21,870 bases of DNA from a virus: positions 1 to 21,870 of IMG/VR virus record IMGVR_UViG_3300009183_000409; one strand, written 5' to 3'. Of the stretch, positions 1 through 21,870 are shown piece after piece (the stretch's first letter is position 1; the number at the start of each line of letters is the position of its first letter). A program made the position numbers and the translations under genes. The notes under the pieces were generated by a model that saw only the letters and a program-made list of their open reading frames with translations, was not told the DNA's origin and did no database searches.

Positions 1-137
1 GTGAATTTGAATTATGGGTTAAAGCCAATGGTGGTACAAAAATACAGGGAGCAGCATTTGAAGCAGTAGCTAGGCTTTGGAAGCGTGCTTACGGATTTGA
101 AAACAGATATATTATAGTGGAGAAACAAATAACATGA
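1..137 (+). CDS. C-terminal end of an unknown gene, cut by the window edge
   Basis: An open frame (codons from base 3) runs in from the left edge for 44 residues and stops at TGA 135-137. Its stop overlaps the next start as ATGA, so the two are probably translationally coupled. The visible tail has an alanine-rich helix followed by a W-K-R-A-Y-G-F-E-N-R-Y segment and a short strand-like I-I-V-E end. That layout loosely resembles the end of a GNAT acetyltransferase, but the acetyl-CoA motif would lie outside the window, so this is only a guess. Confidence 0.6.
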   Translation, partial: EFELWVKANGGTKIQGAAFEAVARLWKRAYGFENRYIIVEKQIT

Positions 138-7638: not shown

Positions 7639-8017
7639 AGTAAAAAGATATGAATTTAATGATACCTATACTGTAGGCAGAATGTATATCAACAATGTTT
7701 ATTTCTGTTACACCCTAGAAGACGTAGTTAGAAAGGGAGCTAAAGTAAATGGACAAACAGCTATTCCTGCTGGGACTTACGATGTTATTATTGATGACTC
7801 TGCTAGATTTGGTAAGCCTATGCCTCATATTTTAAATGTTCCTAATTTCACAGGCGTAAGAATACATGCTGGTAATACATCTAAAGACACAGATGGATGT
7901 ATCTTATTAGGTCACACATATGCAGGTAAAGACTTTATAGGAAATTCTAAATTAGCATACGATGTATTTTTTAACAAACTTAAAGAAGACAAAACAGCAA
8001 CTATTAAAATATGGTAG
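7628..8017 (+). CDS. DUF5675-type endolysin candidate (YkuD-like active-site motif)
   Basis: The protein has 129 residues, the usual size of the DUF5675 family. The signature is V-P-N-F-T-G-V-R-I-H-A-G-N at 71-83 followed by D-T-D-G-C-I-L-L-G at 87-95. The His-80/Cys-91 pair resembles the H...S-x-G-C catalytic pattern of L,D-transpeptidase (YkuD) folds. The earlier L-E-D and I-P-A-G-T-Y motifs are also typical. Such proteins sit in phage lysis cassettes and are thought to cut peptidoglycan. Here it follows two holin-like genes, starts inside the upstream gene and has no signal peptide, so it would need a holin. Confidence 0.8.
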   Translation: MLIEVKRYEFNDTYTVGRMYINNVYFCYTLEDVVRKGAKVNGQTAIPAGTYDVIIDDSARFGKPMPHILNVPNFTGVRIHAGNTSKDTDGCILLGHTYAGKDFIGNSKLAYDVFFNKLKEDKTATIKIW

Positions 8018-11860: not shown

Positions 11861-12097
11861 TTAGAAAGGTACATCTTCATCTACTTCAACTGCTTTAGGC
11901 TTCACATCACCATCTTTTAGCTGAACAGTACCGCTAATAAACTTACCACTTTTACCCTCACGAATCCATCCTGCGATTCTAAACTCAATACCATCTACAT
12001 TTGCCAATCCAGTATAGTTTGGTTTTTTAGGGTTATCACCTTGCTCATTTTTAAATAACGTAAACGTATTTGTATTATCATACTTTTGCTCTGCCAT
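11861..12097 (-). CDS. Small protein with SSB-like acidic tail
   Basis: The protein has 78 residues, with AAGGAG before an ATG that overlaps the upstream stop as TAATG. The core reads N-T-F-T-L-F-K-N-E ... Y-T-G-L-A-N-V-D-G-I-E-F-R-I-A-G-W-I-R-E-G-K-S-G-K-F-I-S-G, strand-rich like a small OB fold. The end E-D-V-P-F copies the D-D-x-P-F tip that SSB proteins use to recruit partners. In a recombination operon with an exonuclease and ERF protein, a single-strand-binding or accessory role is reasonable but unproven. Last gene of the operon. Confidence 0.65.
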   Translation of the reverse strand: MAEQKYDNTNTFTLFKNEQGDNPKKPNYTGLANVDGIEFRIAGWIREGKSGKFISGTVQLKDGDVKPKAVEVDEDVPF

Positions 12098-12300
12098 TAT
12101 TTTCTCCTTAACATTACTTGTTTAACTACTGAACCTCTAAATAAATCTGGACTTTCTGAAATAACCTTATCAACTACATCATCTAATTTATCTAGATAAC
12201 TATTTTGTTCCCTAAGTTTTAACTCTACAAAGCGGTCAGCACTTATTCCACTGTAACATGCTTTAATTCTTTGTTGTTGATCTTGCGTTAAAAAGTTCAT
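12097..12300 (-). CDS. Hypothetical 67-residue recombination-block protein
   Basis: It starts at ATG 12300, coupled by ATGA to the YqaJ exonuclease gene. It is helical and polar, with Q-D-Q-Q-Q-R-I-K-A-C and S-Y-L-D-K-L-D-D-V-V-D-K-V, and a basic end (M-L-R-R-K) whose codons also carry the ribosome site of the next gene. No known family. Confidence 0.62.
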   Translation of the reverse strand: MNFLTQDQQQRIKACYSGISADRFVELKLREQNSYLDKLDDVVDKVISESPDLFRGSVVKQVMLRRK

Positions 12301-12899
12301 TTTATCTCCTTCAATTTATTAATTACATCATCCACTTCTCCTAAGAATTGCTTTACTTCTGACTCTAATTCTTTTTGATATGCTGTATCTGCTTCTACAC
12401 GCTTCACGAATATTTGAAGATGTTGTGGAAACATTGGGTTATAACTTACAAAATCACACCACTTACGATTTGTACATAAAAGCTGAAACTGTATCTGTGG
12501 TATATATCTACTAGGTACATCTTGAGTCATCAGTGTTTCTGTATGTGTACTTCCCATTGGGCATTTAATTTCAAGAATACCATCATCTCCTACCATGCCA
12601 TCTGGACTAGCACCAGCTTCTAAGGTAGGATGTTTTACAAACCCTACCTCTTCCACTTCCCCAAATTGCTGAACATATCTATCCCTAGCAAATATTTCTC
12701 TATCTATACCATCTTGCATAGCTTGGTTAATATAAGATTCTTGTTTTTCTCCAGTCAATCGTTCACTGACTAACTGAATTTTGTAGTTACGTCTAGACGC
12801 AGATTCACCACTCTTAATCTTTGCTAGTACATCAGCCACACGACTAGCTGTAACCTTTCCTAGTCGTGCTTGAAACCACTCTTCCGAACGCTGTTCCAT
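12297..12899 (-). CDS. YqaJ-type viral recombinase exonuclease
   Basis: The protein has 200 residues, standard for the YqaJ/lambda-exonuclease family. R-S-E-E-W-F-Q-A-R-L-G-K-V-T-A-S (4-19) is the opening motif. G-A-S-P-D-G-M-V (96-103) carries D100, and L-E-I-K-C-P (109-114) gives the E-x-K of the PD-(D/E)xK site. It would chew 5' ends of double-stranded DNA to leave a 3' strand for the annealing protein encoded just upstream, whose stop overlaps this start. Confidence 0.92.
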   Translation of the reverse strand: MEQRSEEWFQARLGKVTASRVADVLAKIKSGESASRRNYKIQLVSERLTGEKQESYINQAMQDGIDREIFARDRYVQQFGEVEEVGFVKHPTLEAGASPDGMVGDDGILEIKCPMGSTHTETLMTQDVPSRYIPQIQFQLLCTNRKWCDFVSYNPMFPQHLQIFVKRVEADTAYQKELESEVKQFLGEVDDVINKLKEIK

Positions 12900-13318
12900 T
12901 AGATAAAGTCCTCTGCTTTTGTATCTTTCATTTTAATCACAGCACCTGCACTAGAGTCAATGGCATCATGCTCTACAATTTCAAAAGCATTAGTCCATAA
13001 ATATCTACGCAAGTAAGTTTGAACTGCACCTAAGTTTTGTACTTCATGGCAACCTTTTAAAGCTGCTGAAGACATAGGACATTTAAACTCAATGAATTGT
13101 GTAGCATCATTCATATCTGTAATAGTTAAAACTGCAATGTCTGTATAAAAAGTTACTGTGCCACAGATACCCACCTCATTACAAATCTCTTGAATAGTAG
13201 GTAAGAAATCACCTAACTCAAAATACTTGTATCCTGCAAATTTATTGTGACCAGACTTTTTAAGGTCTGCTACTTGTAACTTAAGTCTAGCTTGCATTAA
13301 CTTACTGTGTATGCTCAT
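12899..13318 (-). CDS. ERF-family single-strand annealing protein
   Basis: I place the start at ATG 13318, which has a strong AAGGAG eight bases upstream. A longer frame upstream overlaps another gene and is glutamine-rich junk-like sequence. The product has 139 residues. K-L-M-Q-A-R-L-K-L-Q-V-A-D-L-K-K-S-G-H, K-F-A-G-Y-K-Y-F-E-L-G-D-F-L-P and A-V-Q-T-Y-L-R-R-Y are the ERF signature (N-K-x-x-x-Y-x-Y ... L-x-Y-x-x-R-Y-x-L). It anneals single strands made by the YqaJ exonuclease. Length is on the short side for ERF, which often carries an extra tail. Confidence 0.88.
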   Translation of the reverse strand: MSIHSKLMQARLKLQVADLKKSGHNKFAGYKYFELGDFLPTIQEICNEVGICGTVTFYTDIAVLTITDMNDATQFIEFKCPMSSAALKGCHEVQNLGAVQTYLRRYLWTNAFEIVEHDAIDSSAGAVIKMKDTKAEDFI

Positions 13319-13466
13319 CTTGCTCTCCTTTTGATGTTGTTGCATCATCACCTGATCGTAATGTTGTTGTTGGCTCATTTGCTTTCTCCCACTTGTCATT
13401 GTCTAACTTTAACTCTTCGTTTAATTCTTTTAATATTTGTGCTATATGTTCTAAACCATTCGCCAT
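13302..13466 (-). CDS. 54-residue acidic protein before ERF
   Basis: From ATG 13466 the protein has an N-terminal helix (L-E-H-I-A-Q-I-L-K-E-L-N-E-E-L-K) and a polar T/G/E/D-rich tail. An upstream GTG at 13550 would add 28 residues, but an AGGA abuts that GTG without spacing. The GGGGG eight bases before 13466 is a better though modest ribosome site. It overlaps ERF by 17 bases. Function is unknown. Confidence 0.55.
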   Translation of the reverse strand: MANGLEHIAQILKELNEELKLDNDKWEKANEPTTTLRSGDDATTSKGEQDEHTQ

Positions 13467-13540
13467 ATAAAATACCCCCAAAATATTACTAAAAACCATG
13501 CTACCACATAGTAGAACTTTTGTGTAAACTTTTTTTGCAA
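13451..13540 (-). CDS. 29-residue TM micropeptide with TTG start
   Basis: A TTG at 13540 lies about eight bases after AGGAG and opens a frame encoding a basic N-terminus (Q-K-K-F-T-Q-K) and one aromatic membrane span (V-V-A-W-F-L-V-I-F-W-G-Y-F-I-W), ending R-M-V. Its stop overlaps the start of the next gene. This frame competes with the GTG-extended version of that gene on the same bases. The clean topology and good spacing favour this one. It would be the first gene behind the leftward promoter. Confidence 0.48.
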   Translation of the reverse strand: MQKKFTQKFYYVVAWFLVIFWGYFIWRMV

Positions 13541-13568
13541 TTGTTTTCACTCCTAAATTTGAAAGAAC

Positions 13569-13597
13569 ACTATACTCTTAGTCATTACAATTGTCAA
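13569..13597 (-). promoter_or_regulatory. Strong leftward early promoter
   Basis: Reading the minus strand, TTGACA (13592-13597, full consensus) is followed after exactly 17 bases by TATAGT (13569-13574, five of six). Start would be near 13562, a few bases upstream of the micropeptide ribosome site. An eight-base palindrome ACAATTGT (13587-13594) overlaps the -35 edge and could be an operator half. Confidence 0.85.
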
Positions 13598-13641
13598 TAA
13601 GTATTTAAATAGGGGTGGTATTTATCCTGCATTTATAATTG

Positions 13642-13670
13642 TTGACAAGATTTGCATTAGGTGTTATAGT
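13642..13670 (+). promoter_or_regulatory. Strong rightward early promoter
   Basis: TTGACA (13642-13647) and TATAGT (13665-13670) are separated by 17 bases, the same hexamers and spacing as the leftward promoter opposite. Start would be near 13677, about 22 bases before the Cro-like gene, which has AAGGAG. This is a P_R-like arrangement. Confidence 0.88.
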
Positions 13671-13698
13671 CGCTTTTCATTTCAATAAGGAGATTTAA

Positions 13699-13887
13699 AT
13701 GAACTTTACAGAGGCGGTATCACACTTTAATAATTCAAGACGTAAGATGGCATATGCTTTAGATATATCTATTCAAGCTATTCAGTATTGGGCTAAAGAC
13801 CCAGCAAAAGAAATTCCTAGGAAACGTGCAGAACAAATTGAAGAACTTTTAATTAAACGTAGACAAGCTGAAACTATTCCAGAATAG
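13699..13887 (+). CDS. Cro-like transcriptional repressor
   Basis: The protein has 62 residues. A helix-turn-helix at about 14-31 (R-R-K-M-A-Y-A-L-D-I-S-I-Q-A-I-Q-Y-W) is followed by I-P-R-K-R-A-E-Q-I-E-E-L, the ordinary continuation of phage Cro and YdaS-type proteins. It is the first gene of the rightward operon, directly behind one of the two mirrored promoters, so it probably binds in between and regulates both. No CI-like partner gene is visible on the other side. Confidence 0.85.
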   Translation: MNFTEAVSHFNNSRRKMAYALDISIQAIQYWAKDPAKEIPRKRAEQIEELLIKRRQAETIPE

Positions 13888-13895
13888 GAGACAAT

Positions 13896-14492
13896 ATGAT
13901 GCCGAGAAATTGGAAGAAATTCCAGCACTATAACAATAGATGTCCTCCTTGGATTAAGGTTCACAATGACCTGTTAAAAAATCCAGATTGGTTTGCATTA
14001 AAAGATAGTAAAAGCACTTGGGTTTTAATAAATATTTGGTTGATTGCATCAGAAGATGTTGATGGAAATTTACCAGATAGCAGAACGCTAGCATTTCGCT
14101 TGCAAATGTCAGAAGATGAATTGAAAAAACATTTATCTGTATTAAATCAATGGCTTATTGAGAATGATAGCATCATGCTAGCATCATGCAAGCAAAGTGG
14201 GGTTACAGAGACAGAGACAGAGAGAGAGACAGATATATCGTTGTCTAGATTTAATGACTTTTGGAAAGAATATCCTGCTAATAGAAAAGTAGGTAGGAAG
14301 CCTTGTGAAACTAAATGGCAAAGACAGGGGTTAGATAAGATTGCAGATAAGATTATTAATCATGTTAAAACTATGAAACAAAGTAAGTCATGGAAGGAAG
14401 GATTTAATCCTGCACCATTAACTTATATTAACCAAGAGAGATGGGAAGATGATAATGCACCTAAACGAAATGTATGGGATAACGCAATATGA
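13896..14492 (+). CDS. Replication initiator/helicase-loader-like protein
   Basis: The protein has 198 residues. The N-terminal half (about 18-90) is a winged-helix replisome-organiser type domain: W-I-K-V-H-N-D-L-L, W-V-L-I-N-I-W-L-I-A, then L-P-D-S-R-T-L-A-F-R-L. A short T-E-T-E-R-E-T linker (104-112) leads to a C-terminal domain with F-N-D-F-W-K-E-Y-P, K-P-C-E-T-K-W and P-A-P-L-T-Y-I-N-Q-E-R-W, found in phage O-like and DnaT-like proteins. It probably opens the origin and loads the helicase encoded next. Repeats inside the gene may be the origin itself. Confidence 0.82.
   Translation: MMPRNWKKFQHYNNRCPPWIKVHNDLLKNPDWFALKDSKSTWVLINIWLIASEDVDGNLPDSRTLAFRLQMSEDELKKHLSVLNQWLIENDSIMLASCKQSGVTETETERETDISLSRFNDFWKEYPANRKVGRKPCETKWQRQGLDKIADKIINHVKTMKQSKSWKEGFNPAPLTYINQERWEDDNAPKRNVWDNAI
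14168..14234 (+). repeat. Internal tandem repeat and purine-rich tract, candidate origin
   Basis: Two adjacent copies of TAGCATCATGC occupy 14168-14178 and 14179-14189. They are followed by a stretch of repeated ACAGAG/AGAG units at 14205-14234 in which one strand is almost all purine. Lambda carries its origin iterons inside gene O at the equivalent linker position, and the encoded linker here is likewise low complexity. Function is inferred. Confidence 0.5.
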
Positions 14493-15412
14493 ACCTAGGT
14501 GATGCTATGGAGTCACTAACAGTTAGTCAGTCTGTAATTACTGATTACTATAAACAAAAGGAATATGCTCATGCAGAATTTAAAGTTAAAGATACGTCTG
14601 TATTTACTGACGATGTCTTGCGATATTTTAATACTGAAATACATAGCGGTAAAACATTGGGCTTCATTAAAACGGAAGATTCGTTTAGGGTAAGACCTAG
14701 CGAGCTGACTGTGTTGACGGGCGTATCAGGGCATGGCAAGAGTCTCTGGTTGTCACAGGTTATATTGTCGCTTATGGCACAAGGAACAAAGTGTTTATTA
14801 TCAAGCCTCGAGATGCGTCCAGTGTTATCTATCGCACGAATGGTGACGCAGACGTTAGGCTCACCAGAACCTACAGATGAATTCATAACAAAATTTTGTG
14901 AACGTGCAAAGGATAAGTTATATATTTATGACCAGATGGGTTCAACATCTAGTGAAGACATGATAGCAACGTTGTATTGGGGTAAGCATGTTTTAGGTGT
15001 AGAAGTATTTGTGATTGACTCACTCATGAAAATGTCAGATATTTCTGAAGACAATTACGAGAAGCAAAAGTTGTTTATAGATAGGCTTGCTGTTACTTGC
15101 AGAGATTTAGAAATTCATGTATTCTTAGTAGCACATACAAGAAAGATGTCAGATGAATCGGAAGTGCCAGATGCTACTCACATTTTAGGTTCAAGTCATA
15201 TTCGAAACTTAACAGATAACGTGATATGTGTGTGGAGGAATAGAAACAAAGAACGTGAAGTAGAGAACAACGAGAAGACAGAAGAAGAGTTAAAGAAGAT
15301 ACCAGATGCTATGGTCTTCGTACAGAAGCAACGTAACTACCAATTTGAAGGCAAGTTTTCATTTTGGTTTGACCCTAAAGGATTAAAATATAAGGAGAGT
15401 CCGTCAAGATGA
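14489..15412 (+). CDS. DnaB-like (SF4) replicative helicase, no primase domain
   Basis: The protein has 307 residues. Walker A is G-V-S-G-H-G-K-S (78-85). A catalytic glutamate lies in S-S-L-E-M-R-P (105-111). Walker B is E-V-F-V-I-D-S-L (172-179). Motif H3 includes F-L-V-A-H-T-R-K. The late G-S-S-H-I-R-N-L-T-D-N-V and arginine-rich tail are DnaB-family features. It lacks the N-terminal domain of DnaB and any primase part, so it resembles the RecA core of phage helicases. It is coupled by ATGA to the loader-like gene. Confidence 0.88.
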   Translation: MNLGDAMESLTVSQSVITDYYKQKEYAHAEFKVKDTSVFTDDVLRYFNTEIHSGKTLGFIKTEDSFRVRPSELTVLTGVSGHGKSLWLSQVILSLMAQGTKCLLSSLEMRPVLSIARMVTQTLGSPEPTDEFITKFCERAKDKLYIYDQMGSTSSEDMIATLYWGKHVLGVEVFVIDSLMKMSDISEDNYEKQKLFIDRLAVTCRDLEIHVFLVAHTRKMSDESEVPDATHILGSSHIRNLTDNVICVWRNRNKEREVENNEKTEEELKKIPDAMVFVQKQRNYQFEGKFSFWFDPKGLKYKESPSR

Positions 15413-15576
15413 GAACATTAACAGATTACCAAGTAAGAAAACAATGGCGTGTTAAGTTACATGCTAAACGATGTGCAGATCAAGACCAATCAGTAGAACG
15501 ATATCATCGTGATGCTAAAGTTTTAAATAGATGTATGAGTATTTATAAAATTGAAGGCACTAAAGCAACGTGGTAA
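15409..15576 (+). CDS. Small basic protein, 55 residues
   Basis: ATG 15409 overlaps the helicase stop as ATGA, with AAGGAGAG about ten bases upstream. The product is very basic (R-K-Q-W-R-V-K-L-H-A-K-R-C) with a helical H-R-D-A-K-V-L-N-R-C segment. A nucleic-acid role is plausible; no family is recognised. The next gene starts inside its last codons. Confidence 0.62.
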   Translation: MRTLTDYQVRKQWRVKLHAKRCADQDQSVERYHRDAKVLNRCMSIYKIEGTKATW

Positions 15577-15743
15577 CAATAAATGATTTTATAAAGGAAT
15601 GTAAAAAAATATTTGGTGAAGACATTTCATACAAAGCAATATCTAAAGATGGTGTAACATTTAAGAGCAAAGGATGGGAAGATAAATATGATTCGATTTG
15701 TTTTGACGAAATACAATTACGAAAACTTACTAACAAAAATTAA
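15570..15743 (+). CDS. 57-residue hypothetical protein with GTG start
   Basis: A GTG at 15570 opens a frame that fills the gap between two genes and continues 56 bases into NinB. The protein reads D-F-I-K-E-C-K-K-I-F-G-E then strand-like S-Y-K-A-I-S-K-D-G-V-T-F-K-S-K-G-W-E, an orderly alpha/beta pattern rather than random sequence. No strong ribosome site is visible, so coupling is likely. Confidence 0.5.
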   Translation: MVTINDFIKECKKIFGEDISYKAISKDGVTFKSKGWEDKYDSICFDEIQLRKLTNKN

Positions 15744-16044
15744 AGCTCTTGATTTGTCTAAACGATGGCGTGTGAATATTTCTGAGGAGAAAGTTGTGAG
15801 GTCACTTGAGCAGAACGAACGCCTCTGGTCGTTGTATAGTTCAGTTGCTAACTACACAGGCGAAGACCCAACCACTATTCATGAGTTGATGGGCTATAAG
15901 TTTCTACGTTATCAAACTGAAATTGCTGGTAATGCAGTAGAGTTAGTTAGGTCAACGACAAAGTTGGATAGTAAACAAATGGCAGAGTATCAAGAACACA
16001 TTGAACAATGGGCTAGTCAGTTGGGTTGGAGTTGGGAGTTATGA
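15688..16044 (+). CDS. ninB: NinB-like recombination mediator
   Basis: The protein has 118 residues. K-R-W-R-V-N-I-S-E-E-K, R-S-L-E-Q-N-E-R-L-W-S-L-Y, and the end S-T-T-K-L-D-S-K-Q-M-A-E-Y-Q-E-H-I-E-Q-W-A match the NinB (lambda Orf) pattern, in which R-S-x-x-Q-N and S-T-x-x-L are the most conserved. It would bind single-stranded DNA and assist recombination. Slightly shorter than lambda NinB. The start sits in the end of the preceding gene. Confidence 0.78.
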   Translation: MIRFVLTKYNYENLLTKIKALDLSKRWRVNISEEKVVRSLEQNERLWSLYSSVANYTGEDPTTIHELMGYKFLRYQTEIAGNAVELVRSTTKLDSKQMAEYQEHIEQWASQLGWSWEL

Positions 16045-16334
16045 GTAACTATAGAAACAAAAAACTATTAGAAGCTGTTAGAGAGTTCCCTTGTGCTATG
16101 TGTGGTAGACAGGATGGGACAGTTTGTGCGTCTCATTCCAATCAACAAAGAGATGGTAAGGGTACAGGAATTAAAGCACATGACTATCGTATAGCTAGCC
16201 TTTGTTACCAATGTCATGATATGATAGACAATCATAAAGAGTTAAGCAGGGCAGATAAAGTAGAAGCATGGGAGTCTGCTCATCGTAAAACTGTAGGATT
16301 GTTATTTGATAAGGGGTTAATTAAAATTGGGTAA
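16041..16334 (+). CDS. YbcO/DUF1364-like HNH-type nuclease
   Basis: I use ATG 16041, overlapping the NinB stop as ATGA, instead of a TTG 15 bases upstream. The product has 97 residues. C-A-M-C (18-21), C29, A-S-H-S (30-33), G-K-G-T-G-I-K-A-H-D-Y-R (39-50) and C-Y-Q-C-H-D-M-I-D (55-63) are the zinc and catalytic features of YbcO-like nucleases found beside ninB in lambdoid phages. It may resolve or trim recombination intermediates. Confidence 0.82.
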   Translation: MSNYRNKKLLEAVREFPCAMCGRQDGTVCASHSNQQRDGKGTGIKAHDYRIASLCYQCHDMIDNHKELSRADKVEAWESAHRKTVGLLFDKGLIKIG

Positions 16335-16527
16335 AGGTTCTACAAGAAGACCATTGTTAATTTCTGAGCAAGAAGCGGAAGACAATTGGAATAAAATATT
16401 TAAAAAAGATTACGAATATCAGTTAAACAAATCTACAGGTGAAGTAGAAAAGCGTTTCCTAGATGGCATATCTAAACCTAACGAAAGTCAATTTGATGGC
16501 GACAAGCCCAACGCAGTTAAGCCTTAA
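16327..16527 (+). CDS. MGKGSxxRP-type small phage protein, TTG start
   Basis: TTG 16327 starts inside the end of the nuclease gene, with AAGGGG about twelve bases upstream. The TTG is supported because the resulting N-terminus (G-K-G-S-T-R-R-P, then N-W-N-K-I-F) is a pattern I know from small proteins of many aquatic podoviruses. The role is unknown. Confidence 0.65.
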   Translation: MGKGSTRRPLLISEQEAEDNWNKIFKKDYEYQLNKSTGEVEKRFLDGISKPNESQFDGDKPNAVKP

Positions 16528-16810
16528 GAAGCTCAGATCAGAGGGATACTTAGTATCAATTACAGAAAAATTTAATCATTTCTGTAAGATAAGGCAGGAC
16601 ATGTGGGGTTGGTGTGATCTCCTTGCTATAAAAGAAGATGAAGTATTAGCAGTACAAACTACAAGCTATACAAATATATCTGCAAGAATTAAAAAAATTG
16701 CTGATAGTGATACTATAGCAATAGTAAGAAAGGCTAACATAAAAGTGCATGTACATGGTTGGCGTAAGGTTGGCAGTCGTTGGGAATGTAAAATGGTGGA
16801 TGTATCGTGA
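16496..16810 (+). CDS. PD-(D/E)xK-like nuclease-fold protein
   Basis: I choose ATG 16496 (A-T-S-P-T-Q-L-S-L-K-K-L-R) because this N-terminus matches a widespread phage family; an upstream start at 16463 would only duplicate the end of the previous gene. The product has 104 residues. K-I-R-Q-D-M-W-G-W-C-D-L-L-A-I (31-45) and L-A-V-Q-T-T-S (51-57) give the D...Q-x-T variant of the restriction-endonuclease core. Q-x-T instead of E-x-K means activity is uncertain. H-V-H-G-W-R-K and W-E-C-K complete the usual end. Confidence 0.72.
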   Translation: MATSPTQLSLKKLRSEGYLVSITEKFNHFCKIRQDMWGWCDLLAIKEDEVLAVQTTSYTNISARIKKIADSDTIAIVRKANIKVHVHGWRKVGSRWECKMVDVS

Positions 16811-17124
16811 GACCCCATGAAAGACAGTATGAATTAAATGGTAAGTCAGTCAATATAGAAAAGATACGAATGAGTATTCTAGAAGCTATTGATGATAACC
16901 CATTAACACTTCCTCAATTAGCTGACGCATTAAAGACTGAACCTAGAAAACTACAATACATATTACTCAATATGCACACTATTGGATTAGTCCATATTAA
17001 TAAAGAGGAAAAGTTTCACAGGTATTCTAAAGTAAAAGCACCCATGCTACAAGATATATTTCATCCAATGCCTGATTTTAGCAATATGATTAAGGGCGTT
17101 TATATTTATACCAACGAGGATTGA
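16807..17124 (+). CDS. Winged-helix DNA-binding-like protein, GTG start
   Basis: GTG 16807 overlaps the previous stop as GTGA. In 105 residues, I-R-M-S-I-L-E-A-I-D-D-N-P-L-T-L-P-Q-L-A-D-A-L-K-T-E-P-R-K-L-Q-Y-I-L (20-53) is a standard winged-helix arrangement, followed by a turn and wing (G-L-V-H-I-N-K-E-E-K-F-H-R-Y). Directly before the Q-like gene, it may be another regulator. Confidence 0.68.
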   Translation: MRPHERQYELNGKSVNIEKIRMSILEAIDDNPLTLPQLADALKTEPRKLQYILLNMHTIGLVHINKEEKFHRYSKVKAPMLQDIFHPMPDFSNMIKGVYIYTNED

Positions 17125-17451
17125 ATGCACATAGATAGACTTAAACAAATACTTGACGATTGGTCTTTATGGATGCACGCACCTAGTCATAAGCTAGGCT
17201 ATCCAAGTAAGTCATTAGGAATGATTAGCGGAGGAGAGTCTACTAGCGATGCCTTTGAAGAGATGTTGTCAGAGATGGACATGACTAACGTCAGGACAAT
17301 TGATGCCATTATCAGTAGTTTACCTGAAGATCAGAGAGATGCGGTCTATGCTAGGTATTTAAAAACATCCAAGTATGACGACTATGAGACCCAACTATCA
17401 TTAGCCTTTGACAACATGTTGACTATAGCTTCTAGAAGGATTGTGGCTTGA
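17125..17451 (+). CDS. Q-like late antitermination protein
   Basis: The protein has 108 residues. It has the W-x-x-W pair (13 and 16), L-G-Y-P (24-27), a serine/glycine loop, and a C-terminal helix-turn-helix-like half beginning V-R-T-I-D-A-I-I-S-S-L-P-E-D-Q-R-D-A-V-Y-A-R-Y. These features follow the phage antitermination Q family, which joins RNA polymerase at a paused late promoter. Context gives strong support: a consensus promoter begins in its last codons and a terminator lies just beyond. Sequence similarity alone would be moderate. Confidence 0.72.
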   Translation: MHIDRLKQILDDWSLWMHAPSHKLGYPSKSLGMISGGESTSDAFEEMLSEMDMTNVRTIDAIISSLPEDQRDAVYARYLKTSKYDDYETQLSLAFDNMLTIASRRIVA

Positions 17452-17477
17452 CAGACCTATATGGTTTATGATATAAT
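17448..17477 (+). promoter_or_regulatory. Full-consensus promoter at the end of the Q-like gene (P_R'-like)
   Basis: TTGACA (17448-17453) overlaps the Q-like stop codon and TATAAT (17472-17477) follows after 18 bases. Both hexamers are exact. Start would be near 17484. A -10-like GATAGT (17489-17494) occurs in the first transcribed bases, where lambdoid late promoters carry the sigma-dependent pause signal used by Q. Confidence 0.9.
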
Positions 17478-17483
17478 TCGGTT

Positions 17484-17554
17484 GTTGGGATAGTCTCGCC
17501 CATAATCTCCGTACTCTCCTCAAAGTCCCCTATTCTCATTAGGGGATTTTTTTT
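17484..17554 (+). ncRNA. Possible short leader RNA between late promoter and terminator
   Basis: Promoter and terminator together predict a roughly 70-base RNA with no open frame of note. In lambda the comparable 6S RNA is an untranslated abortive product of P_R'. An independent regulatory role cannot be judged from sequence. Confidence 0.5.
17526..17554 (+). terminator. Intrinsic terminator downstream of the late promoter
   Basis: TCCCCTA (17526-17532) pairs with TAGGGGA (17540-17546) around a seven-base loop and is followed by eight T (17547-17554). A transcript from the promoter above would end after about 65-70 bases unless antiterminated. It also ends the early rightward operon. Confidence 0.93.
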
Positions 17555-17565
17555 ATAGGTATATT

Positions 17566-17736
17566 ATGAAAGCCACTAAAAAACAGCAAGTTAAGATGTC
17601 TAAAGTGTTTAAAGAATTTGGTAAGGGTGAATTGAACATCGGAAAATCATCTAAGAAAGTACCGAACACAAAGACAGGGCAAAAGCAAGCTATCGCAATC
17701 GCCTTATCACAAGCAAAGATGTCTAAAAAGAAATAG
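17566..17736 (+). CDS. DUF6496-like lysine-rich protein
   Basis: This 56-residue protein begins 12 bases after the terminator. K-M-S-K-V-F-K-E-F-G-K-G-E-L-N-I-G then Q-K-Q-A-I-A-I-A-L-S-Q-A fits the DUF6496 pattern (K-V-M-x-E-x-x-x-G-x-L ... Q-A-I-A-I-A-L-S-x-A). It ends in K-K-K. It is the first gene behind the late promoter and may be a virion or DNA-binding protein. Its stop lies one base from the opposing gene. Confidence 0.75.
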   Translation: MKATKKQQVKMSKVFKEFGKGELNIGKSSKKVPNTKTGQKQAIAIALSQAKMSKKK

Positions 17737-17737
17737 C

Positions 17738-17911
17738 CTATTTCTCATTTATCTTATTTCTGATAAGTGAGTTAGCTTCCTTTTTAGTGTTAAGAAAATA
17801 ATAGTTTTTAATTGTAGATTGATTGTAAAGAATTACATCATTCAAAAAGCTAGATAGCTTTTTACTGTTAAAGTTAGCAATAGTTCTGTTTTTAAAGTCG
17901 ATAACATACAT
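17738..17911 (-). CDS. Hypothetical 57-residue basic protein (end of minus-strand array)
   Basis: ATG 17911 has a GGGAGA ribosome site. The protein is polar and lysine/asparagine-rich, with F-N-S-K-K-L-S-S-F-L-N-D-V-I-L-Y and a helical end T-K-K-E-A-N-S-L-I-R-N-K. It is the last gene of the leftward array. A hairpin formed by CTCATTTATC/GATAAGTGAG (17744-17753 with 17762-17771) lies in its own coding end. Confidence 0.62.
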   Translation of the reverse strand: MYVIDFKNRTIANFNSKKLSSFLNDVILYNQSTIKNYYFLNTKKEANSLIRNKINEK

Positions 17912-17912
17912 T

Positions 17913-18059
17913 TTAGTCTCCCAATTCGCATAAGTTATAAATTAACTCATAGATTTCTTGACCGCTTTCACTCATTCTGTCATAGTCAAAAGATAAAAGG
18001 TCTATAAGTTCTCTCAATTCTAAATATTGAGCCGATGTAATAGTGTCATGTTTTTGCAT
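17913..18059 (-). CDS. Hypothetical 48-residue acidic protein
   Basis: AAGGAG lies before ATG 18059, which overlaps the previous stop as TAATG. The protein is helical and acidic (Q-Y-L-E-L-R-E-L-I-D-L-L-S-F, then Q-E-I-Y-E-L-I-Y-N-L-C-E-L). No motif is recognised. Confidence 0.65.
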   Translation of the reverse strand: MQKHDTITSAQYLELRELIDLLSFDYDRMSESGQEIYELIYNLCELGD

Positions 18060-18223
18060 TATTTGTTCTCCTTATATTCAATATAAAGCTCTTCGGCTAG
18101 GTTGTCGGCTTCTTTATCTGTCATAGGGTCGCAATCCTCAAACGAATAAACAAGTTCATGATTAACATAGAATTTAAACTGATACTTTGAATCAGGGTCA
18201 TAAGAATAGGTGTAATCACTCAT
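18059..18223 (-). CDS. Hypothetical 54-residue protein
   Basis: ATG 18223 overlaps the upstream stop as ATGA. It contains Y-Q-F-K-F-Y-V-N-H-E-L-V-Y-S-F and D-P-M-T-D-K-E-A-D-N-L-A-E-E-L-Y-I-E-Y, a strand-hairpin plus helix plan also seen in the genes at 18593 and 19592. Acidic; unknown function. Confidence 0.62.
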   Translation of the reverse strand: MSDYTYSYDPDSKYQFKFYVNHELVYSFEDCDPMTDKEADNLAEELYIEYKENK

Positions 18224-18447
18224 TTTGAAGCACCTTGAACCCCTCTATCAATAGAATCTAACTCTTCATTGGTATTGATAAGTTCTAGTAAGTGTTCTGC
18301 AAGTTCTAAACGCCCTTGATAAATACCCTCTGAACCATCTGTTAAGGCACCTTCTAGAGCTTCGTTAGCGTCATCAATAGCACCTTGCAATTGCATTTTA
18401 ATAACATTTATAAGTCTTTTCTGTTGATGTATTAATAAATCGTTCAT
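18220..18447 (-). CDS. Hypothetical 75-residue helical protein
   Basis: GGAGG lies before ATG 18447, coupled by ATGA to the upstream gene. It is almost wholly helical (R-L-I-N-V-I-K-M-Q-L-Q-G-A-I-D-D-A-N-E-A-L then L-E-L-A-E-H-L-L-E-L-I), a likely two-helix or coiled-coil dimer. No known family. Confidence 0.65.
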   Translation of the reverse strand: MNDLLIHQQKRLINVIKMQLQGAIDDANEALEGALTDGSEGIYQGRLELAEHLLELINTNEELDSIDRGVQGASK

Positions 18448-18596
18448 ATTTCCTCCGTTTGAATATTAGTAAACTCAATGCTTACTTTCTCATTAGTAGG
18501 ACTTATTGATAATACATCGCATATGCTTTCCCAAACATATACGTTATCAAATTCGTCTGCGTATAGCTTTAATATATTGACTTTTTTTTGTGTCAT
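18444..18596 (-). CDS. Hypothetical 50-residue protein
   Basis: ATG 18596 is coupled to the upstream gene by ATGA and follows a GGAGA site. A basic start (T-Q-K-K-V-N) leads to strand-like V-Y-V-W-E-S-I-C-D-V-L and K-V-S-I-E-F-T. No function is known. Confidence 0.62.
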   Translation of the reverse strand: MTQKKVNILKLYADEFDNVYVWESICDVLSISPTNEKVSIEFTNIQTEEI

Positions 18597-18772
18597 GATG
18601 CGTTCTCCATGTTGATAAAGTTTTTAGCTTGTTTAATAGACCGAAAATTATCTCCCCAAACGTCATAAGGGTCTCCATTTTCGTCTAATTTCCAAACGTG
18701 ATAGTATTCTGTTCTACCTGTAAAGCTATAGCTGTTATTTATAAGATAATTGTTATATATGATTGAGTGCAT
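18593..18772 (-). CDS. Hypothetical 59-residue protein with Y/W-rich strands
   Basis: It has an AAGGAGA ribosome site. Y-Y-H-V-W-K-L-D-E-N-G-D-P-Y-D-V-W-G-D-N is a beta-hairpin with a D-E-N-G turn, followed by a helix (S-I-K-Q-A-K-N-F-I-N). The same W-x-L-D-x-x-G then helix layout occurs in many tiny phage proteins that bind host proteins. No family is assigned. Confidence 0.62.
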   Translation of the reverse strand: MHSIIYNNYLINNSYSFTGRTEYYHVWKLDENGDPYDVWGDNFRSIKQAKNFINMENAS

Positions 18773-18783
18773 GGTTATTCTCC

Positions 18784-18969
18784 TTAAATATATTCATGGT
18801 CAATTTTGATATTCCAATGGATAGCGTCTCCAAATTGGTTTGCTTTGTCAATGGCTTCAATAAGTGTATCTAGTTCGCTTGTATCTATTAAATCAAGCCT
18901 TAATTCAAAGCATGGTCTACCTTCTTTTTCTTTATTGGTATAGCCTTGCATAATTGTATTAGCTAACAT
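18784..18969 (-). CDS. Hypothetical 61-residue protein
   Basis: AAGGAG lies before ATG 18969, which overlaps the previous stop as TAATG. F-E-L-R-L-D-L-I-D-T-S-E-L-D-T-L-I-E-A-I-D-K-A and A-I-H-W-N-I-K-I-D-H suggest a small alpha/beta fold. Function unknown. Confidence 0.65.
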   Translation of the reverse strand: MLANTIMQGYTNKEKEGRPCFELRLDLIDTSELDTLIEAIDKANQFGDAIHWNIKIDHEYI

Positions 18970-19121
18970 TATGTATTCTCCTTAAATGATAATTCTAATT
19001 CCTCTAATTGAGTTTTTATATTGTCATAACATTCATTGATAGAATCATATCCAAATGGTATAGAGCCATTTTGTAGGTCTGATATATCAAAGAAAATACT
19101 TTGTATAGTTTCTAATTGCAT
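18969..19121 (-). CDS. Hypothetical 50-residue helical protein
   Basis: It starts at ATG 19121 after an AAGGAG site. The sequence TTGTCAAG (seen here as CTTGACAA) lies between ribosome site and ATG. The product is acidic and helical, ending K-T-Q-L-E-E-L-E-L-S-F-K. Unknown family. Confidence 0.6.
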   Translation of the reverse strand: MQLETIQSIFFDISDLQNGSIPFGYDSINECYDNIKTQLEELELSFKENT

Positions 19122-19133
19122 TGTCAAGTCTCC

Positions 19134-19220
19134 TTATAAAGATAACATTAATAGTAAAAACATATATAGATTAATAAAGCCTAGTAATAATATTAAAAAG
19201 TGTTTAAGTAAGTTATTCAT
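19134..19220 (-). CDS. 28-residue TM micropeptide
   Basis: AAGGAG sits seven bases before ATG 19220. After N-N-L-L-K-H the rest is one membrane span (F-L-I-L-L-L-G-F-I-N-L-Y-M-F-L-L-L-M-L). It overlaps the end of the gene upstream and fills an otherwise empty gap. Real expression is likely because of the good ribosome site; the role is unknown. Confidence 0.58.
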   Translation of the reverse strand: MNNLLKHFLILLLGFINLYMFLLLMLSL

Positions 19221-19404
19221 TGTTTAATCTCCTTGTAATTTCATTATTTAATGCCTCAAGTAATAGAGTGTCATAACGTAATATATAACCGCTATCAATT
19301 CTATTTTTAAGATAGTTATATTCATACTTTAAAGAATCAATGTCAATGAATTTAATATCTATACAAGTTTGAGGGTAAAATGTTTTTAATGTTATTTGAT
19401 TCAT
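19213..19404 (-). CDS. Hypothetical 63-residue protein
   Basis: AAGGAGG lies before ATG 19404, and the start overlaps the stop of the gene upstream. The helical part (L-K-Y-E-Y-N-Y-L-K-N-R-I) and E-A-L-N-N-E-I-T-R-R-L resemble the 'L-x-x-E-L-x-R-R' end of small phage coiled-coil proteins. No function assigned. Confidence 0.65.
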   Translation of the reverse strand: MNQITLKTFYPQTCIDIKFIDIDSLKYEYNYLKNRIDSGYILRYDTLLLEALNNEITRRLNNE

Positions 19405-19550
19405 TATAAAACCTCCTTATTAATATAACTGTCAATTTGTTTGATAATGCTGTCATATTGCTTTAATGATATAGATTGAGGAAGACATAAAGTCAAGCCT
19501 TTGTCAATCTGTTGTTTAATCTCTTTAAGTTCTGTTATAGATAGTTTCAT
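19404..19550 (-). CDS. Hypothetical 48-residue helical protein
   Basis: AGGAG lies before ATG 19550. T-E-L-K-E-I-K-Q-Q-I-D-K-G and L-K-Q-Y-D-S-I-I-K-Q-I-D-S-Y form two helices; the end overlaps the next start as TAATG. A consensus-like promoter sits immediately upstream, so this gene may also start its own transcript. Confidence 0.63.
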   Translation of the reverse strand: MKLSITELKEIKQQIDKGLTLCLPQSISLKQYDSIIKQIDSYINKEVL

Positions 19551-19578
19551 AATGTTATCTCCTGTTAGTGTATAAGTA

Positions 19579-19606
19579 ATAATACATAAGTTTATAATGT
19601 TGTCAA
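19579..19606 (-). promoter_or_regulatory. Candidate internal leftward promoter of the small-gene array
   Basis: On the minus strand TTGACA (19601-19606) is followed after 16 bases by TATTAT (19579-19584, five of six). It lies in the end of the 45-residue gene and just before the next. Start would fall near 19572, about 22 bases before ATG 19550. Confidence 0.6.
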
Positions 19607-19729
19607 GTATTCTTTAAACAATCTTTTAGCGTCTTTAATAGTGTAAAAGTAATATGTTTGATATATATATTGATTATCTTTTATATCTGATAGCGTTATA
19701 GAGCCATTATAATTCTTTGTTATAGACAT
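19592..19729 (-). CDS. Hypothetical 45-residue protein
   Basis: AGGAGA lies before ATG 19729. A strand-rich start (Y-N-G-S-I-T-L-S-D-I, Q-Y-I-Y-Q-T-Y-Y-F-Y) is followed by a helix T-I-K-D-A-K-R-L-F-K-E-Y. This F-x-x-I-K-x-A-K-x-x-F end recurs in the gene at 18593, hinting at relatedness. Unknown function. Confidence 0.62.
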   Translation of the reverse strand: MSITKNYNGSITLSDIKDNQYIYQTYYFYTIKDAKRLFKEYLTTL

Positions 19730-19779
19730 GGTTATATCTCCTGTTATATTGTCAAGTTTGATTAATTCGTAGTTATAAA

Positions 19780-19803
19780 AGGGGTTCTTTATAAAATCCC
19801 CCT
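19780..19803 (-). terminator. Weak leftward terminator or attenuator
   Basis: On the minus strand AGGGG and CCCCT pair around a 14-base loop, followed by TTTTAT. It lies between the 91-residue gene and the rest of the array, so it could reduce read-through from the promoter at 20155. The stem is short. Confidence 0.42.
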
Positions 19804-19815
19804 ATAACATATATA

Positions 19816-20091
19816 CTAGTTTAAGTTAGCTAAGATGTAAACACCTTCTTTAATTTTCTTTTCTGTCTCTTTAGTAGATTCATTTAAGAACGTAGAACGA
19901 TGTTTTGATGTAGTTCTTGAATAGTTCCAATAAACAGGGTCAAGCGTTACTTTGTCAGGTAAAGAGCCATTATCTTCTATCTTTACGATAATAGACTTGT
20001 AAGATTGAAAGTAAGTAACCTTGTCATCTTCAATTATGAATTGGTTAGCTACTATATTATTTCTGTTATTAGTTATGTTAGAGACTTTCAT
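19816..20091 (-). CDS. Hypothetical 91-residue early protein
   Basis: I place the start at ATG 20091, seven bases after AAGGAG; an in-frame ATG at 20127 has no ribosome site and lies inside an operator-like palindrome. N-R-N-N-I-V-A-N-Q-F-I-I, T-Y-F-Q-S-Y-K-S-I-I-V-K-I and T-S-K-H-R-S-T-F-L are a pattern I recall from short early proteins of many aquatic phages. It ends L-A-N-L-N. Function is not known. It is the first gene of the leftward array. Confidence 0.7.
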   Translation of the reverse strand: MKVSNITNNRNNIVANQFIIEDDKVTYFQSYKSIIVKIEDNGSLPDKVTLDPVYWNYSRTTSKHRSTFLNESTKETEKKIKEGVYILANLN

Positions 20092-20111
20092 GGTGTGACT
20101 CCTTAAGTTAT

Positions 20112-20127
20112 TTGTCAAGATTGACAA
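20112..20127. promoter_or_regulatory. Palindromic operator candidate
   Basis: TTGTCAA (20112-20118) and TTGACAA (20121-20127) are exact inverted repeats two bases apart. The site lies over the predicted start of transcription of the leftward promoter, where a bound repressor would block it. Confidence 0.6.
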
Positions 20128-20132
20128 TGCCT

Positions 20133-20160
20133 ATACTAAACTCATTAAATAGATTGTCAA
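20133..20160 (-). promoter_or_regulatory. Candidate promoter of the leftward small-gene array
   Basis: TTGACA (20155-20160, minus strand, full consensus) is followed after 16 bases by TAGTAT (20133-20138, four of six). A start near 20126 fits with the ribosome site of the 91-residue gene downstream. Confidence 0.6.
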
Positions 20161-20175
20161 GCATTATTATTAATT

Positions 20176-20195
20176 AAATTGTAACAAATTGTAAC
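20176..20195 (+). repeat. Tandem 10-base repeat
   Basis: AAATTGTAAC occurs twice in tandem (20176-20185, 20186-20195), 15 bases upstream of the leftward -35. It could be an activator site or chance in AT-rich DNA. Confidence 0.5.
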
Positions 20196-20296
20196 AGGAT
20201 AGTTAAGGGTATTTATATAGTATAGATAGATTAAAGACATCATATAACCATAATCAGACGCACACAATTGCACGCTAACGCATTATTAAACAAGGG

Positions 20297-20325
20297 TTGA
20301 TACTTACCCCTAACCAATTTATAAG
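20297..20325 (+). promoter_or_regulatory. Candidate rightward promoter before terminase
   Basis: TTGATA (20297-20302) and TATAAG (20320-20325) are each five of six and 17 bases apart. The start would fall next to ATG 20334, almost leaderless, and the -10 overlaps the AAGG ribosome site. This conflict lowers confidence. Confidence 0.35.
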
Positions 20326-20333
20326 GTCATAAC

Positions 20334-20771
20334 ATGGAAGAGATTCATTCAACAGATAACATAGAGACGATAGAAGACATAAGGGAAGAGGTCATATCAT
20401 CTGAGTTAGTAGAGATTGACAAGGAAAAGGCAACAGGAAGAGGAAGACCCCCGCACCTTCCAAACGACACCACCCGAAATAGAGTTTTTATTTTAAGTAC
20501 AGTAGGCACTCGCCATGAAGATATCGCAACCGTATTAAACATATCACATGATACACTTGTCAAGTACTATAAAGAAGAGCTTGACAAAGGTCGTATTGAA
20601 GCTAACGCTTCTGTAGCAGAGACCTTATTTAAACAAGCTAAAGAAGGAAACACTACTGCTATGATATTCTGGTTGAAGTCTAGAGCTAAATGGAAAGAAA
20701 CATCACAACATGAGATTAGTGGTAATCCAGATGGTACGCCTGTTGAAGTAAAGATTATTACAGGAATATAA
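20334..20771 (+). CDS. Terminase small subunit
   Basis: The protein has 145 residues. An acidic N-terminus (1-30) is followed by G-R-G-R-P-P (35-40) and a helix-turn-helix (about 60-78: R-H-E-D-I-A-T-V-L-N-I-S-H-D-T-L-V-K-Y-Y). Then come E-L-D-K-G-R-I-E-A-N and G-N-T-T-A-M-I-F-W-L-K-S-R-A-K-W-K-E (105-122). That order is typical of small terminase subunits that recognise the packaging site. The large subunit should follow beyond the window or after the small genes. Confidence 0.85.
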   Translation: MEEIHSTDNIETIEDIREEVISSELVEIDKEKATGRGRPPHLPNDTTRNRVFILSTVGTRHEDIATVLNISHDTLVKYYKEELDKGRIEANASVAETLFKQAKEGNTTAMIFWLKSRAKWKETSQHEISGNPDGTPVEVKIITGI

Positions 20772-20773
20772 GA

Positions 20774-20798
20774 CCCCCCCACCCCTTTTTTAAAAAAA
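20774..20798. repeat. Homopolymer cluster downstream of terminase small subunit
   Basis: A run of seven C, one A, four C, six T and seven A lies just after the terminase stop. It is unusual in such an AT-rich genome. It could belong to a packaging or cutting site, or be hard-to-sequence DNA; no hairpin terminator is formed. Confidence 0.45.
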
Positions 20799-20855
20799 CG
20801 AAAAACCTCTCTGCGAATAAAACGTCAGTAGGGTAAATTTTACACAGGATATTTT

Positions 20856-21269
20856 ATGGTTGAACCAGTAGAACAAGAAAGCATGCCAACTTATGCGGAT
20901 GTGAGCAATGATAACGTAGTGGCAGTTTTTGTGCTATTATGCCTTCATGCTGTTACTAACAACCACATCAACCACTGGCGTACAGATTCTTTCTCTATAC
21001 ACTCTGCCCTTGGTGAGTTCTACGAATCGCTTGGCGAGGCTCTAGATGAGTTTGTAGAAGCATATATGGGTAAGTATGGGCAAATCAAAGATTACCCAGA
21101 GTTTTACTCATTACCTAATAAAGACGCTTTAGCTGAACTAAAGATGTTATGTGGAGCTGTAATTGCTCTTCGTGAACAAATGCCAGATGACTCTGAACTA
21201 GAAAACCTTCTGGATAATATTGAAAGTTTAATTGACTCAACTATGTATAAGGTAAAATTCTTAAAATGA
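20856..21269 (+). CDS. DUF5856-type ferritin/Dps-like protein
   Basis: The protein has 137 residues, with AGGA seven bases before ATG. H-W-R-T-D-S-F-S-I-H-S-A-L-G-E-F-Y-E-S-L (40-59) and L-D-E-F-V-E-A-Y-M-G-K-Y-G (63-75) follow the DUF5856 pattern. They resemble the H-W ... H ... D-x-x-x-E metal site of Dps mini-ferritins. The rest is helical, consistent with a four-helix bundle. Iron binding or DNA protection is possible; the family has no proven role that I know. Its TGA overlaps the next ATG. Confidence 0.72.
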   Translation: MVEPVEQESMPTYADVSNDNVVAVFVLLCLHAVTNNHINHWRTDSFSIHSALGEFYESLGEALDEFVEAYMGKYGQIKDYPEFYSLPNKDALAELKMLCGAVIALREQMPDDSELENLLDNIESLIDSTMYKVKFLK

Positions 21270-21412
21270 AAAACGGATTATACGCAAACATAAACGCTAA
21301 ACAAAAAAGGATAGCTGCAGGCTCTGGTGAGAAGATGCGTAAGGTAGGCACCAAAGGTGCTCCTACTGCTAAAGCATTTAAACAATCAGCAAAGACAGCT
21401 AAAAAGAAATGA
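21266..21412 (+). CDS. Lysine-rich 48-residue protein
   Basis: ATG 21266 overlaps the previous stop as ATGA. It reads G-L-Y-A-N-I-N-A-K-Q-K-R-I-A-A-G-S-G-E-K-M-R and G-A-P-T-A-K-A-F-K-Q-S-A-K, ending K-K-K. This is a common tiny protein of aquatic phages near terminase or portal genes. Strongly basic, so a DNA or virion role is plausible. Confidence 0.72.
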   Translation: MKNGLYANINAKQKRIAAGSGEKMRKVGTKGAPTAKAFKQSAKTAKKK

Positions 21413-21705
21413 GTGCTGCTTGGCAAAAGAAAGAAGGCAAGAATCCTAAAGGCGGTCTTAATGCCAAAGGTCGTGCATCTTACAAAGCTGAAACAGGCGG
21501 TACTTTAAAAGCACCTGTAAAGTCTGGTGACAATCCTAGGCGTGCATCCTTTCTAGCTCGCATGGGTAACATGGCTGGTCCAGAACATAAACCTAACGGT
21601 GAGCCTACTAGACTCTTATTATCCCTAAAGGCTTGGGGTGCTTCATCTAAAGCAGATGCAAAAGCAAAAGCAAAAACTATTTCAGCAAGGAATAAAAAGA
21701 AATGA
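21409..21705 (+). CDS. DUF6321-like basic protein
   Basis: The protein has 98 residues and ATG overlaps the previous stop. A-A-W-Q-K-K-E-G-K-N-P-K-G-G-L-N-A-K-G-R, then R-R-A-S-F-L-A-R-M and P-T-R-L-L-L-S-L-K-A-W-G, is the pattern I associate with DUF6321. The end is A/K-rich (K-A-D-A-K-A-K-A-K) and finishes K-K-K like two other genes here. Function unknown. Confidence 0.75.
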   Translation: MSAAWQKKEGKNPKGGLNAKGRASYKAETGGTLKAPVKSGDNPRRASFLARMGNMAGPEHKPNGEPTRLLLSLKAWGASSKADAKAKAKTISARNKKK

Positions 21706-21870
21706 AATGTCCAGTAGCCACACATGATATTCAACTCAATCTTAAAAATAGAGATTGGGCATTTAAGAATGTAGGCTATGGTCCAGTAAATCCAAACATA
21801 GAAGATAAAGTATTTTGGGCTAAACGTGCAGACGAATGGGCTACTACACCAGAGATTGCTAAACAATCAC
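21702..21870 (+). CDS. Start of a small conserved phage protein, cut by the window edge
   Basis: ATG 21702 overlaps the previous stop as ATGA and the frame is open to the end. M-K-C-P-V-A-T-H-D-I, then Y-G-P-V-N-P-N and F-W-A-K-R-A-D-E-W match the opening of a family common near terminase genes in aquatic phages. In that family a C-G-N-C-type motif follows, which would lie outside the window. Confidence 0.7.
   Translation, partial: MKCPVATHDIQLNLKNRDWAFKNVGYGPVNPNIEDKVFWAKRADEWATTPEIAKQS

Follow-up and report, generated by a model that had tools for sequence, protein, structure and literature searches.

Does the short interval directly behind a small Q-like gene of a freshwater phage constitute a late switch of the lambdoid kind, and where on the DNA would its antiterminator load? 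The question was addressed using the complete IMG/VR record IMGVR_UViG_3300009183_000409 (21,870 bases, 34% G+C), the whole of which is referred to here as the window. The lambda P_R'/tR' switch comprises a constitutive late promoter, an early pause, a terminator and Q, and the window module shares this logic. A preliminary description of the window had matched its parts and their order to P_R'/tR' within 110 bases. Comparison with relatives supports a real, conserved Q-type late switch, the working of which we infer from sequence. The layout itself is already known from 21Q-family phages; what is new is the placement of the conserved region in which loading and pausing are proposed to occur.

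Promoter, leader and terminator in the window

The Q-like antiterminator gene (108 aa) occupies 17125-17451 on the plus strand, and all elements described in this section lie on the same strand. The -35 hexamer TTGACA (17448-17453) overlaps the stop codon TGA (17449-17451) of this reading frame and is followed after an 18-nt spacer by the -10 hexamer TATAAT (17472-17477), the two being exact and spanning 17448-17477, as the preliminary description had reported. This was the only exact copy of TTGACA-18-TATAAT in the whole window (0.01 expected from shuffles) and the sole 12-of-12 promoter within 12000-21870. An extended -10, TATG, lies at 17467-17470 (-17 to -14).

The strong hairpin with eight T that had been noted downstream was likewise present. 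It forms a tR'-like intrinsic terminator at 17522-17554, in which the TCCCC...GGGGA hairpin and T8 occupy 17526-17554. The last T lies 77 bases beyond the -10, and the distance from the -35 to the last T is 107 nt, so that all the claimed parts were present. The 71-nt leader folded at -19.3 kcal/mol (z -3.3), a value that beat 199 of 200 shuffles.

Conservation of the module among related contigs

Homologues of the window protein were found in viral_contigs at 303 of 309 candidate stretches, and the best 80 of these were used. A further 41 homologues were obtained with the protein of Methylophilales phage Venkman as query and 3 with that of EBPR podovirus 1. A total of 126 loci with a Q-like gene was examined, leaving out L109, L112 and L124 (contig ends) and L129 (a weak match of 46 residues). 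The scan of genome_contigs returned no relative, and therefore yielded neither host nor prophage.

At 84 of the 126 loci TTGACA overlapped the Q stop codon, with TATAAT following after 17 or 18 nt (40 and 44 loci, respectively). The remaining 42 loci comprised 28 Venkman-type, 11 type B (L113-L123) and 3 EBPR-type. Type B and EBPR-type loci carried their own promoter a few bases past Q (TTGAAA, TTGAAC or TTGCAC with TATAAT; TTGACA-17-CAGAAT), plus a terminator. Venkman-type loci had no such promoter behind Q, the gene running directly into another gene, and the link between Q and promoter is therefore not universal. A scan of viral_contigs with the DNA pattern TTGACA-17/18-TATAAT-N6-R-TTGG gave at least 79 loci plus L032; the pattern was discarded as a source of further candidates, the matches listed being unrelated promoters save for copies of known Q contigs.

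The base 7 nt after TATAAT was a purine in 47 of 47 distinct sequences (39 G, 8 A), which set the inferred transcription start (+1) at 17484. Within the extended -10, all 47 distinct relatives retained T-17, and 44/47 had T-15 and G-14.

Among distinct type A sequences, 57 of 58 showed a hairpin of -6 kcal/mol or below ahead of a T run, compared with 50 of 300 random stretches from the same contigs. In L018 the top-scoring hairpin was the leader hairpin. Terminator stems varied between relatives with pairing kept (AAGCCCTT/AAGGGCTT, AAGCTCTT/AAGAGCTT, AAACCCTT/AAGGGTTT and TCCCCT/AGGGGA). Terminators of the type B and EBPR loci, which fall outside the length and tail limits of the terminator script, rest on folds. 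Promoter and terminator were clearly above chance and conserved, unlike the downstream hexamer GATAGT considered below. These counts support the conclusion that Q gene, late promoter and intrinsic terminator are maintained together across many related contigs.

Several variants of the leader were seen. Four loci (L004, L020, L029 and L080) have a tandem pair of terminators in the leader after Q. Type B loci have a short 5' hairpin, the arms of which differ with pairing kept among phages whose Q proteins are nearly identical, and a terminator loop that contains CTCTCCGT, the same word as type A +23 to +30.

The conserved transcribed region and the candidate pause element

Identity between relatives was unevenly distributed over the promoter and leader. 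In 43 sequences, which exclude the four L001-type sequences that are included in the 47-sequence counts, mean pairwise identity was 44% in the spacer from -29 to -18, 74% in the extended -10, 89% from +2 to +30 and 58% from +31 to +45. The corresponding figures for Q codon positions 1, 2 and 3 were 88, 93 and 63%. The block from +2 to +30 (17485-17513 in the window) is thus held about as tightly as coding sequence; it is itself non-coding, since it has stops in all three frames, and its conservation ends at +30. The spacer from -29 to -18 contained no conserved 6-bp element among the distinct relatives, and hence no conserved Q-binding element between -35 and -10, though the Q proteins of these relatives are 75-91% identical to that of the window. 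Given an unconserved spacer and a block at 89%, the Q loading site probably lies at or below the start site, and 17485-17513 is regarded as a candidate Q-loading element plus pause. The block could alternatively serve another protein or the RNA.

The association of the block with this module was specific. The +2 to +28 motif (pattern TTGGNNNANNCTCGYCCANNNTNTCCG) occurred at 80 stretches in the 2.9 million contigs of viral_contigs. All 80 copies had TTGACA-16..19-TATAAT-N7 directly before and a T run after. A Q gene lay directly upstream of 77 copies; the other 3, at contig edges, begin inside the last codons of Q.

Two -10-like hexamers lie within the block. The first, GATAGT, had been proposed as a pause-like box at about +5 to +10; it is present at 17489-17494 (+6 to +11) and did not hold up as a conserved -10-like element. 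Its A2 and T6 were both retained in 35 of 47 distinct relatives, a -10-like hexamer in 32 of 47, and the replacements included ATAAGT, AATAGT, ATAAAA and ATAACT. The second, CATAAT at +18 to +23, kept both A+19 and T+23 in every one of the 47, the three positions between them (+20 to +22) being variable (CATACT, CACAAT, CATCAT, CAGCAT, TATCGT, CACACT), and was followed by CTCCGT or similar. For AlpA, positions A2 and T6 of the -10-like element have each been shown to be important (PMC9371919). CATAAT-CTCCGT (17501-17512) is accordingly the best candidate for a sigma-dependent pause element with its downstream pause sequence. A -10-like element plus YYCYGT stood at +18 in 26 of the 39 distinct leaders examined. 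Of the 6 distinct type B leaders, 2 had this string, at +6 or +7, and the single distinct EBPR-type leader had none; in all, 11 of the 39 lacked it, one of which (L019) was mis-registered by the pattern. Among random 45-nt stretches the string occurred in 161 of 20,000.

These figures bear on whether the module simply has the canonical geometry of lambda and phage 21, in which the pause would fall at GATAGT and the Q site in the spacer between -35 and -10. The window and most relatives do have a -10-like hexamer at +6 to +11, the type B leaders L113 and L118 have one at +6 or +7, and a Q site spaced as for 21Q or AlpA would fall at about -20 to -13, where TATG is conserved. Yet TATG is accounted for as an ordinary extended -10 within an otherwise divergent spacer, the A/T pair at +6 to +11 is less well kept than that at +18 to +23, and the conservation of +12 to +30 would be left unexplained. 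We regard the canonical geometry as quite improbable. The part of the preliminary description that likened the module to P_R'/tR' consequently needs one amendment, in that the spacer Q site has no conserved counterpart here.

A downstream displacement of the known geometry would account for the extent of the block. In the 21Q complex the bubble runs from +3 to +15 and the active site is at +14 (PMC6606751). If this geometry is shifted to CATAAT, the bubble would span about +19 to +31 and the pause would be near +30, where conservation ends; the predicted pause is at about +29 to +31. On geometry alone, a Q site moved along with the pause would be expected around -9 to +7, a range that takes in the invariant TTGG (+2 to +5).

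In the L001 type, CTCTCCGTA had been considered as an element inserted elsewhere. This was rejected, as +18 to +30 aligns gap-free on re-registering (TATCGT-TTCTGT), and the later copy of CTCTCCGTA is therefore probably incidental.

The block might instead be kept because +1 to +30 works as RNA, either as a 5' hairpin, a nascent-RNA element or a terminator-ended small regulatory RNA. The pairing of UGGG with CCCA (+3 to +6 with +16 to +19) is maintained in 7 of the 11 sequences that change +6, the L001 hairpin is strong (-17.2 kcal/mol, from a fold that stops within the L001 terminator), and both the re-paired hairpin arms and the recurrence of CTCTCCGT in type B point in the same direction. 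Against this, the change at +6 is unpaired in the other 4 of the 11, the window's own fold does not contain the UGGG/CCCA pairing, and no Rfam family was matched. An RNA function therefore seems unlikely to be what the block is conserved for, and a DNA element for loading and pausing is preferred.

The Q-like protein

The structure model, which was built from 32 sequences (pLDDT 77.6), comprises an N-terminal helix, a loop and a C-terminal helix-turn-helix resembling sigma region 4. The loop (residues 22-39) is conserved and was modelled at low confidence (pLDDT below 50); it is a candidate nozzle.

Sequence comparisons linked the family to antiterminators at low scores. The window protein had no Pfam match above cut-off, its best being Sigma70_r4_2 (sigma-70 region 4) at E 0.001, and did not itself match PF06530. 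PF06530 matched 12 of 32 diverse members (best E 3.3e-4), the three with scores shown all being under the 26-bit cut-off. The profile phrog_79, 'anti-termination protein Q-like', matched 5 of the 32 and phrog_248, 'transcriptional activator', matched 4 (best 0.0018). Alignment by hhalign to a 7-member 21Q-family alignment was weak (probability 4%, E 0.01). E. coli ydfT (250 aa), which we take to be of the lambda-Q type, was dropped as a member of that family and QuuD taken instead; a QuuD scan of viral_contigs gave 80 copies, all 100% identical and so useless for a profile. A PDB sequence search with the protein alignment returned unrelated matches only (best E 0.07).

Foldseek against the PDB yielded no match below E 1 and placed phage 21 Q at rank 12. 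When the Foldseek-ranked chains were realigned using VIA-align, phage 21 Q (6p18) was at rank 1 with Z 6.5 over 98 residues, a value in the range that common arrangements reach (Z below 8 being no proof) and one nearly equalled by sigma region 4 chains. Phage 21 Q entries were at ranks 1, 6, 8 and 11, and among the top 11 rows only these four spanned residues 1-108, the others being sigma region 4. A Q-type role for the gene is thus supported by the recurrent promoter overlap, the weak PF06530 matches and the whole-length fold match; the protein likely works like 21Q and may belong to its family.

The resemblance to sigma factors allows another reading, in which the protein is an ordinary activator or a sigma-region-4-like factor that raises initiation, the terminator merely insulating the late genes from the early operon. 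The matches to Sigma70_r4_2 and phrog_248 and the sigma region 4 chains among the fold matches are what it would predict. An exact consensus promoter with an extended -10 should, however, need no activator, and a terminator directly between promoter and late genes is kept in 57 of 58 sequences. Phage 21 Q also resembles sigma region 4 (PMC6606751), so the resemblance fits a Q protein too. An activator role is considered unlikely, and an antiterminator is retained as the working interpretation.

Genes downstream of the terminator

The first gene past the terminator (17566-17736, plus strand) encodes a DUF6496-like protein of 56 aa. It is followed by leftward genes and then by the terminase small subunit gene (20334-20771, plus strand), the first recognised late gene, 2.9 kb after Q. 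In all 41 distinct type A layouts the terminase small subunit gene lay on the Q strand, 2,346-4,598 nt past the Q stop, and the intervening reading frames were mostly leftward. In EBPR podovirus 1 the corresponding distance is 118 nt.

The region upstream of the terminase gene was examined for other promoters. In the window a leftward promoter, TTGACA-16-TAGTAT (20133-20160, minus strand), faces the late transcript, and the palindrome TTGTCAAGATTGACAA (20112-20127) is likely the operator of this accessory promoter. A leftward promoter matching at least 10 of 12 positions was found in 36 of 37 distinct regions and the palindrome TTGTCAAnnTTGACAA in 18 of 37; a rightward promoter of at least 10 of 12 adjoined the terminase gene in only 6 of 37. 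The P_R'-like promoter is therefore the best candidate for the late promoter. Since genes on the other strand separate it from the late genes, which begin 2.3-4.6 kb downstream, read-through would run antisense to these intervening genes.

Proposed working of the switch and comparison with known systems

The reading we favour, with somewhat better than even confidence, is a Q-dependent late switch of the phage-21/AlpA working type in which the loading and pause site has been moved downstream. A near-constitutive promoter, set into the end of the Q-like gene, would let RNA polymerase initiate at 17484, transcribe about 30 nt and pause as sigma region 2 grips CATAAT. Where the Q-like protein is absent, transcription would stop at the terminator and give an RNA of about 71 nt. 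The protein would bind DNA at or just below the start (about -8 to +17) and load on the paused enzyme, and its loop (residues about 19-39) would close round the RNA exit and prevent terminator hairpins. Polymerase modified in this way would pass the terminator, continue for 2-5 kb antisense to the leftward early operon and so reach the terminase and structural genes. The pausing, Q binding, antitermination and antisense effect in this scheme are what we infer from the conserved elements and the order of the genes.

A more specific version is offered tentatively and is held to be less probable than its contrary. Here Q would load from the transcribed side at a site overlapping the -10, the start and the first 17 or so bases, the sigma-dependent pause would be displaced downstream by about 16-19 bp relative to phage 21 or AlpA, and loaded polymerase would transcribe the leftward early operon of the phage itself in antisense over 2-5 kb before reaching the late genes. 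If so, late switching would also silence early genes, the read-through switching off the opposing operon.

The closest known systems are those of the 21Q family (phage 21 Q/21PR', PF06530; SE1, HK639, ST64T, Proteus phage Pm34 and E. coli QuuD). They likewise have a small Q of N-terminal helix, loop and C-terminal helix-turn-helix, phage 21 Q being matched by the modelled fold of the window protein over its whole length, and the gene directly precedes promoter and terminator within about 110 nt. The window protein is shorter, with no HMM match above cut-off, and the -10-like element of its family is at +18 rather than about +2 as in phage 21. The Q sites of phage 21 consist of TGAGCA repeats whose C residues lie at -21 and -13 (PMC6606751). 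SE1 has TGAGCA-AA-TGAGCA in the spacer right behind Q and HK639 the near-exact TGAACA-AA-TGAGCA, whereas the family of the window has no conserved element there. Lambda similarly differs in having its QBE in the spacer (PMC6606751), and lambda Q (PF03589) belongs to an unrelated sequence family (PMC7171158).

AlpA of Pseudomonas aeruginosa (PalpB, tB) is also an antiterminator with a DNA site, a -10-like element whose A and T matter and a terminator before the first gene (PMC9371919, PMC7969949). Its ABE lies in the spacer at -25 to -20 and its -10-like element at -1 to +5 (PMC9371919), and it serves a bacterial lysis programme rather than a phage late operon. GafZ of the Caulobacter gene transfer agent is again a phage-like antiterminator acting at one late-type promoter; its site is between -35 and -10, and it is described as dissimilar to both Q and AlpA (PMC11150451).

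In known Q-type switches the Q site lies in the promoter spacer, and pausing occurs only a few bases into the transcript. A shifted site and pause in a widespread aquatic phage group would, if it holds, show how far loading geometry can shift, and dozens of natural variants are available for testing that geometry. The module also suggests how late gene expression may be timed in apparently lytic phages that infect streamlined aquatic bacteria. No description of this late switch in such phages was found in the open-licence PubMed Central literature.

Annotated relatives, neighbouring genes and life style

Three annotated phages carry a homologue: MW202481 (84%), Venkman (52%) and EBPR podovirus 1 (38%). 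In the first two the depositors' annotation is antitermination protein. MW202481, an uncultured podovirus from Manatee Spring, is a full member of the module. The hypothetical CDS annotated in it at 8182-8439 begins at a GTG within the leader and extends across the terminator, and the true DUF6496-like gene probably starts after the T run. The G+C-rich EBPR podovirus 1 has the same layout apart from its nearer terminase: at 7720-7860, the gene for the Q-like gp41, annotated only as hypothetical, gives way to a promoter, a short leader and a terminator, immediately after which comes the gene for the terminase small subunit. Venkman differs in having no promoter behind Q and its late genes on the other strand. 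As its whole late operon is opposite to the Q strand, Q must act at a distant promoter there; TTGTGG-17-TATAAT was found upstream of the terminase, with no clear terminator. Venkman infects marine Methylophilales, is described as having podovirus-like particles and was compared with a freshwater LD28 phage (PMC8163748). A Methylophilales host for the window phage would be a guess.

The module has lambdoid-like neighbours (Cro-like, NinB and replication genes). Neither an integrase (PF00589) nor an S24 repressor (PF00717) was found in any of 10 records, of which 2 are annotated as complete and 8 are possibly fragments (IMG/VR), and the phage group is apparently lytic, as had been supposed. A leader RNA antisense to the cro ribosome site was considered and rejected, the site being always a generic AAGGAGA that did not change with the leader.

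A P22-Cro-like gene lies at 13699-13887, and no CI-type repressor was seen. Upstream of it, at 13569-13670, are divergent promoters with TTGACA-17-TATAGT on both strands. The words TTGTCAA/TTGACAA recur in this region and at the leftward promoter (20112-20160), and one repressor may therefore act on all three promoters.
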